A stretch of DNA of 64,000 bases from Comamonadaceae bacterium (GTDB lineage: Bacteria; Pseudomonadota; Gammaproteobacteria; Burkholderiales; Rhodocyclaceae), in the NCBI GenBank assembly GCA_029255645.1, contig JANLJE010000003.1, forward strand, positions 45,963 to 109,962, written 5' to 3'. Position numbers and translations under genes: made by a program. Shown one piece after another: positions 24,381-26,477 of the stretch. Position 1 is the stretch's first letter. Every line of letters starts with the position of its first letter. Below the pieces are notes generated by a model. It did no database searches. It saw only the letters and a list, made by a program, of their open reading frames with translations, and was not told the DNA's origin.

Positions 24381-25238
24381 TCAGGCCGTCAGCAGGCCGC
24401 GCATCTTCTGCAGGGCCTTCACCTCGATCTGGCGGATGCGCTCGGCAGAAACCTGGAACTCGTCCGCCAGGTCATGCAGGGTGGCGCTCTCGTCCCCGGC
24501 CAGCCAACGGGCTTCGATGATGCGGCGGCTGCGGGGGTCCAGGCCATCGAGGGCGCTGCGCAGTCCTTCGTCCTGCAGGCGGGCATATTCCCGAGCTTCG
24601 ATCACCTGGGTGGGTTCGTAGTGGCTGTCCGTCAGGTAGTCGATCGGGGCGTAGGCATCCTCGTCATCATCGGCGCTGTTTTCCAGGGCCATGTCGCGCC
24701 CGGTCATGCGGGTTTCCATCTCCCCGACTTCCTCGACCTTGACGCCCAGTTTCGCGGCAATCTCGGCGGTCTGCCCGGGGGAAAGGCTGTGGCCACCTTC
24801 GTAACCGTTCTTGAGACTGCGCAGGTTGAAGAACAGCTTGCGCTGGGCCTTGGTGGTGGCCACCTTCACCATGCGCCAGTTCTTCAGGATGTATTCGTGG
24901 ATTTCGGCCTTGATCCAGTGAATGGCAAAGGACACCAGGCGCACGCCGCGGTCCGGGTCGAAACGCTTGACGGCCTTCATCAGGCCCACATTGCCTTCCT
25001 GGATCAGGTCCGCGTGCGGCAGCCCATAGCCGAGATAACCCCGGGCAATGGAAATCACCAGACGCAAATGGGAAAGTACCAGTTGCCGGGCCGCCTCCAG
25101 ATCTTGTTCCTCATGAAAGCGACGGGCAAGCTGGATTTCTTCTGCTTCTGACAGCATGGGCACCCGGTTCGCGGCCTGAATGTAGGTCTCGATGCTGCCG
25201 ACTGTCGAGGGAATGGAAAAAGCCAGGGCTTGGGTCAT
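24381..25238 (-). CDS. rpoH: RNA polymerase sigma-32 (heat shock) factor
   Basis: LVLSHLRLVISIARGYLGYGLPHADLIQEGNVGLMKAVKRFDP; RpoH box-like QRKLFFNLR. Confidence 0.97.
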   Translation of the reverse strand: MTQALAFSIPSTVGSIETYIQAANRVPMLSEAEEIQLARRFHEEQDLEAARQLVLSHLRLVISIARGYLGYGLPHADLIQEGNVGLMKAVKRFDPDRGVRLVSFAIHWIKAEIHEYILKNWRMVKVATTKAQRKLFFNLRSLKNGYEGGHSLSPGQTAEIAAKLGVKVEEVGEMETRMTGRDMALENSADDDEDAYAPIDYLTDSHYEPTQVIEAREYARLQDEGLRSALDGLDPRSRRIIEARWLAGDESATLHDLADEFQVSAERIRQIEVKALQKMRGLLTA

Positions 25239-25269
25239 GGTTCGGTTTCCTCCTTGATGACGGATTATT

Positions 25270-25296
25270 TTAGCACTCGTTTCATGAGAGTGCTAA
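25270..25296. promoter_or_regulatory. CIRCE element (HrcA operator), perfect TTAGCACTC-N9-GAGTGCTAA
   Basis: Exact consensus 32 bp upstream of rpoH start. Confidence 0.95.
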
Positions 25297-25403
25297 AAGG
25301 GAGAAAAGGTTCGTTGCGATCCGGAGGTTCGAAATCGATCAAAGCCGCTTCACCTCTGGCCGGATTCTATCTTTTTACAAGGAACTTGGCGCCCGAATGT
25401 GAA

Positions 25404-25432
25404 AGGCATCGGGAAAGCCATCGGGAAAGCAA
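25404..25432. repeat. 12-bp tandem duplication (GGCATCGGGAAA/GCCATCGGGAAA)
   Basis: Read directly. Confidence 0.8.
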
Positions 25433-25480
25433 GCAATCGGAGCGTTACGCGGCAACCGCAGGGCCTGAGCGATTATCCGG

Positions 25481-25512
25481 CAACTGGGTCGCAAAGCAAC
25501 TGGGTCGCAAAG
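25481..25512. repeat. 16-bp perfect tandem duplication (CAACTGGGTCGCAAAG)
   Basis: Read directly. Confidence 0.95.
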
Positions 25513-25577
25513 CAAGCCCTGAAGCAGGGCAAATCCGCCGCCGGCTTGCACGGCGTCGGCAGGCGCCGGGCTGGGGC

Positions 25578-26477
25578 TCACTCCATCTGGTGCAGGGCCA
25601 TGCTCACTGAAAGCTGGGCGCCCAGCCAGCCGAGGCCGGCGCCGATGCCGGCGAGCAGGGCGAAGAACTGGGGGGAGAGGCCCTGGAGCGCGAAGGCGCT
25701 GCCGTAAAGGCTGGCCAGTTCGGCGACGGGCGTGGCCAGAGCCCGGATGCCGAGGCTGATGATGAGACCGGCGGCAAGCCCCCCGAGGGCGCCCTGGAGG
25801 GCTCCGGAATAGTAGAAGGGGCGGCGGATGAAGGCGTCGGTGGCGCCGATCAGCCGGGCTACCTGGATTTCGTCGGCCTGGGCCAGCACTTGCAGGCGGA
25901 TGGTGTTGAAGGTGACGGCGGTGAGCCCTGCGGCGAAAATGGCGGCGAGCAGGCTGACGGCCAGTTTGCCGAGCCGGAGGAAGGCGTCGAAACGCTTGAT
26001 CCAGGCCGAATCCAGTTGCACGTGGGCGACGCCGGGCTGGCTGGCAAAGCTTTCCCGCAGGGCTTCCAGGGTTTCCGGGGAGGCGTCCCGAGGCTCGACG
26101 ATGAAGGCGTCGGGCAGGGGGTTCCGGGGCAGGCTGGCGACGATCTCGGCCATGCCTTCGGTGGATTTGAGGCGGTTCAGGGCGGTTTCCCGGGGCACGA
26201 AATGCCATTGGCCGGGCACCTTGTCTTCCAGGTGCTGTTCCACCCCCTTGACGACATCCGCGCTGGCGCCGGTCTGCATGAAGATGCTGATCTGCTGCAC
26301 CCCGGCGGCGCTCTTGCCCAGGGTTTTCAGGTTGTCCAGGAAGACGTAGCCGGCGGCGGGCAGCGTCATGGTGATGCCGATCACCAGCAGCGACAGCAGG
26401 GTGTTCAGGGGGGCGGCCCAGAGCCGGCGCAGGGCGCGGCGGAAGGCGGCCAGGTGTTGGCGGAGCCAGGTATTCAT
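25578..26477 (-). CDS. ftsX: Cell division protein FtsX
   Basis: N-terminal TM, ECD, three C-terminal TMs; overlaps ftsE. Confidence 0.94.
   Translation of the reverse strand: MNTWLRQHLAAFRRALRRLWAAPLNTLLSLLVIGITMTLPAAGYVFLDNLKTLGKSAAGVQQISIFMQTGASADVVKGVEQHLEDKVPGQWHFVPRETALNRLKSTEGMAEIVASLPRNPLPDAFIVEPRDASPETLEALRESFASQPGVAHVQLDSAWIKRFDAFLRLGKLAVSLLAAIFAAGLTAVTFNTIRLQVLAQADEIQVARLIGATDAFIRRPFYYSGALQGALGGLAAGLIISLGIRALATPVAELASLYGSAFALQGLSPQFFALLAGIGAGLGWLGAQLSVSMALHQME

Follow-up and report, generated by a model that had tools for sequence, protein, structure and literature searches.

A CIRCE element that appears to overlie two rpoH promoters points to HrcA control of sigma-32

We describe an exact CIRCE element, the putative operator of the repressor HrcA, in front of rpoH, the gene for the heat-shock sigma factor sigma-32, in a window of 64,000 nt (the whole stretch of DNA that was analysed). 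The evidence presented below makes it very probable that HrcA controls rpoH. The element appears to be overlaid on two rpoH promoters, and HrcA could therefore gate both. In the reading in which we place considerable confidence, HrcA would repress rpoH through an operator lying over a sigma-E-type promoter and a housekeeping promoter with an extended -10, under a GroE feedback shared with groESL. HrcA binding, repression, sigma-factor use and GroE feedback are all what we infer from comparisons of DNA and protein sequences.

The element occupies positions 25270-25296 on the minus strand and reads TTAGCACTC-TCATGAAAC-GAGTGCTAA toward rpoH; the forward-strand letters of these 27 bp are TTAGCACTC-GTTTCATGA-GAGTGCTAA. 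It matches the CIRCE inverted repeat TTAGCACTC-N9-GAGTGCTAA with 0 mismatches in 18 fixed positions and is the sole match with at most 3 mismatches in the window, for which shuffled sequences give an expectation of 0.00. The exact HrcA operator claimed here by an earlier, sequence-only reading is thus confirmed, as is the identity of the downstream gene: rpoH (24381-25238, minus strand, 285 aa) scores 404.9 bits against TIGR02392, well above the cut-off of 323.1. The site was also correctly placed upstream of the start codon, although the gap to the ATG is 31 nt and not the 32 bp first given, which is within the promoter and leader region of a heat-shock gene. A Shine-Dalgarno sequence, AAGGAGG, can be read at 25249-25255 on the same strand. 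The upstream neighbour is ftsX (25578-26477, minus strand; TIGR00439, 271.4 bits, cut-off 255), separated from rpoH by 339 nt. This intergenic region also holds short direct repeats at 25405-25530 (ACTGGGTCGCAAAGCA twice and CATCGGGAAAGC twice) and, at 25516-25530 on the minus strand, a terminator-like hairpin that may set rpoH apart from ftsX.

The source genome (2.93 Mb, 99.85% complete) has the repressor that such a site calls for. A search for hrcA, proposed as a check on the earlier claim, found one encoded HrcA, with the C-terminal domain PF01628 (6.3e-70) and the DNA-binding domain PF03444, also above its cut-off. Genome-wide, CIRCE occurs twice at up to 3 mismatches, before rpoH and before groES. 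No CIRCE lies within 400 nt of hrcA itself, where the best candidate has 9 mismatches, and autoregulation of hrcA through CIRCE was accordingly dropped. Because there are only these two elements and none at hrcA, the predicted HrcA regulon consists of groESL and rpoH alone.

Conservation in the family is strong. A set of 61 genomes, with each genus represented once, yielded 60 rpoH genes, and all 60 (60 genera) carry CIRCE upstream: 52 of these sites are exact, 7 have a single mismatch and 1 has two. Aligned on CIRCE, the flanks and spacers of the 60 loci are highly variable, and the conserved unit is therefore the site rather than the whole region.

Across the class, the site goes together with hrcA. 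A strict pattern (CIRCE, 18-48 nt, ATG and then the conserved RpoH motif GLMKA) matched 123 genomes out of 369 sampled evenly across the class. The matches are spread over many families, and named carriers include Pseudoalteromonas, Rheinheimera, Dyella, Methylocaldum, Thioalkalivibrio, Ramlibacter and Rhodocyclaceae. HrcA was detected in 268 of the 369 genomes, and the pattern was present in 116 of these 268 versus 7 of the 101 genomes without hrcA (Fisher p ~1e-12, a value to be read with the non-independence of related genomes in mind). The 18-48 nt leader limit made the strict pattern understate prevalence, and checking negatives individually raised the figure: when 30 hrcA-bearing genomes without a match were followed up, rpoH was located in 27, and 23 of the 27 have, about 30-140 nt before the start, a CIRCE with no more than 3 mismatches, compared with 2 of 28 rpoH upstream regions from genomes lacking hrcA. 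These proportions suggest that rpoH is a near-constant HrcA target in the hrcA-bearing members, and CIRCE before rpoH is an ordinary feature for the clade of the source organism. Taken with the presence of hrcA and the 60 of 60 family sites, this class-wide association gives strong comparative support to the earlier claim that HrcA represses rpoH.

Against HrcA control of rpoH stand seven genomes that have CIRCE before rpoH and no HrcA match; most of them are incomplete, but two are 97-99% complete. Beyond the 2 of 28 regions with a CIRCE, some of the upstream regions from hrcA-lacking genomes resemble decayed sites. Near-intact or decayed elements were seen in three such regions, for example with a single base deleted from the right arm and TGCTAAAAT preserved. 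Such near-intact and decayed elements look like the result of recent hrcA loss or of assembly gaps. Separately, one genome has two rpoH-like genes, with CIRCE before only one.

Two sets of putative promoter elements overlap the palindrome, a feature that the earlier reading did not note. A consensus scan of the window gave TTAGCA-18-TAAAAT with a TG, that is, an extended -10, TGCTAAAAT, at 25267-25275 on the minus strand, formed by the right CIRCE arm plus AAT, and a weak -35, TTAGCA, at 25291-25296 on the same strand, 18 nt from the extended -10 hexamer. TGCTAAAAT has TG one base before the hexamer, A at position 2 and T at position 6, which makes this a predicted promoter. In the family loci the palindrome is followed by AAT, TAT or CAT, yielding TGCTAAAAT or similar, and the last T of the extended -10 is found in 54 of 60 family loci and in 79 of 80 named loci. 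Furthermore, this element often outlives the operator: in genomes lacking hrcA the left CIRCE arm is mostly lost and the extended -10 is often retained, so that 8 of the 28 hrcA-lacking regions have TGCTAnnAT no more than 150 nt from rpoH, versus 0.56 expected, with a maximum of 3 in 300 shuffles. A scan of the window for sigma-32-like promoters returned 17 against 15.7 expected, nothing above chance.

The second set is of a sigma-E type. In the consensus of the 60 family loci, GGAACTT begins 16-17 nt before CIRCE, and its best match averages 5.8 of 7 just before the element versus 3.3-3.6 in other upstream segments. A similar enrichment was found in 80 named loci that come from many families and include a few loci of the family set. 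The spacer begins T-C-A in the family alignment and, joined to the last letters of the left arm, gives TCTCA 16-17 nt past GGAACTT; TCTCA itself is present in 23 of 60 family loci and its final A in 44 of 60. In the window, the putative -35 is CGAACCT (25307-25313, minus strand), read from the window letters, which agrees with the relatives' consensus GGAACTT at 5 of 7 positions and is shifted by one base. The putative -10, assigned from the family column statistics, is TCTCA (25285-25289, minus strand), which combines the last letters of the left arm with the first three bases of the spacer, at a spacing of 17 nt versus about 16 for sigma-E (RpoE, ECF02). One locus without hrcA and without the palindrome retains GGAACTT-N16-TCCAA together with TGCTAAGAT.

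RpoE is encoded in the source genome (TIGR02939, 320.5 bits, cut-off 236). Immediately after its gene, outside the window (locus L233, 1012-2193), come rseC and a gene for a trypsin-PDZ protease. No rseA intervenes, and a search of the genome with the RseA_N model gave no match; the anti-sigma factor must be highly divergent or absent. The sigma-E reading is supported in a betaproteobacterium by in vitro transcription of the rpoH gene (fam) of Bordetella bronchiseptica by SigE (PMC3490749).

The CIRCE copies before groESL provide a control, since they share operator and repressor with the rpoH site in the same genome and family. In 21 family genomes, a sigma-32 promoter, CTTGAAA-N14-CCCCTATTA, stands directly upstream of the groES CIRCE. 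The spacers of these copies mostly begin with G, the site is followed by CA or TA, mostly as CAG or CAA, and the copies have neither TCA in the spacer nor AAT after the site. A longer HrcA recognition sequence that would include the AAT and the spacer TCA was thus ruled out. Because the groESL copies lack them, the letters specific to rpoH are best read as promoter letters. The two sites therefore differ in their setting: the groESL CIRCE is placed where a sigma-32 promoter would start transcription, whereas the rpoH CIRCE overlaps the sigma-E-type and extended -10 elements.

Not every reading of these data involves both promoters, or an operator at all. HrcA might repress rpoH with only the extended -10 promoter of consequence here, the sigma-E-type elements being degenerate or unused. 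The imperfect -35 of the window, with 5 of 7 letters, and the greater invariance of the extended -10, whose T is kept in 79 of 80 loci, lean that way, but the GAAC core and TCTCA are both present at 17 nt, the genome encodes RpoE and the sigma-E pattern holds across the family, and we consider this narrower version rather unlikely.

Far less probable is that the palindrome acts mainly as an RNA 5' hairpin on the stability or translation of rpoH mRNA and not as a DNA operator. Bacillus offers a precedent for such a role, in that a CIRCE located in the 5' leader influences mRNA stability, and the full palindrome would fold as RNA if transcribed. Both inferred transcription starts, however, fall inside or after the palindrome, so that the hairpin would not be transcribed; the folding z-score is just -1.1, and the arms are conserved to the letter, show few compensatory changes and are tied to hrcA. 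Least credible of all is a functionless relic or chance palindrome, given that none is expected by chance and that the site is kept in all 60 family rpoH genes despite variable flanks.

Repression by HrcA over both promoters would work as follows. HrcA on its site would cover both -10 elements and so occlude both promoters. HrcA of Bacillus requires GroE for activity; if HrcA needs GroE here as well, a shortage of free GroE would release rpoH and groESL together. Heat or misfolded protein would occupy GroE, HrcA would fail, and both targets would be derepressed. Sigma-32 would then also drive groESL, forming a feed-forward loop, until fresh GroE reactivated HrcA and shut off rpoH and groESL, closing the loop. 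Sigma-E would bring an envelope stress input to the same rpoH site.

The association of CIRCE with rpoH has precedents. Rodionov et al. (2004) list a perfect TTAGCACTC-N9-GAGTGCTAA at -51 of rpoH in Geobacter sulfurreducens (PMC545781, table 8), in a genome that, like ours, has hrcA and a groESL CIRCE and for which HrcA control is predicted. Geobacter sulfurreducens differs in being a delta-proteobacterium and in that its hrcA-grpE-dnaKJ operon bears CIRCE, whereas hrcA of the source genome has none. For beta-, gamma- and epsilon-proteobacteria the same paper cites Permina and Gelfand, and the parts of it consulted do not discuss an overlap of CIRCE with sigma-E or extended -10 elements. The earlier suggestion that comparative work had considered such sites is thus borne out in part. 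With the 2004 prediction for Geobacter, the link between CIRCE and rpoH is of a known kind. The study of Permina and Gelfand, which judging by its title treats these regulons in the same bacteria, probably includes sites of this kind. Escherichia coli, to our knowledge, has no HrcA. The E. coli promoter rpoHP3 and the Bordetella bronchiseptica fam promoter share RpoE-type transcription of rpoH with the sigma-E-type promoter proposed here, and the fam paper leaves HrcA and CIRCE unmentioned (PMC3490749). Additionally, a Cupriavidus paper reports a mutation upstream of rpoH without a reporter effect, with no position given in the text consulted. A limited search of the open-access literature, which leaves absence unproven, found no description of CIRCE overlapping both sigma-E and extended -10 elements. 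The link itself has been proposed before and is here found to be widespread; what is added is the composite promoter reading, which is also the part worth testing.

More broadly, the comparisons make it reasonably likely, in our view, that rpoH carries an ancient composite switch in hrcA-bearing Gammaproteobacteria, betaproteobacteria included, in which the palindrome would serve at once as operator, sigma-E -10 and extended -10, and at which cytoplasmic chaperonin shortage and envelope stress would meet; upon loss of hrcA, the palindrome would decay and the promoter letters stay. In the textbook picture drawn from E. coli, rpoH is controlled by sigma-E, translation and stability. If our reading is true, most hrcA-bearing relatives would, unlike E. 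coli, place rpoH under a chaperonin-sensing repressor, HrcA would stand above sigma-32 in a feed-forward loop with groESL, and hrcA mutants of beta- and many gammaproteobacteria would overproduce the whole sigma-32 regulon.
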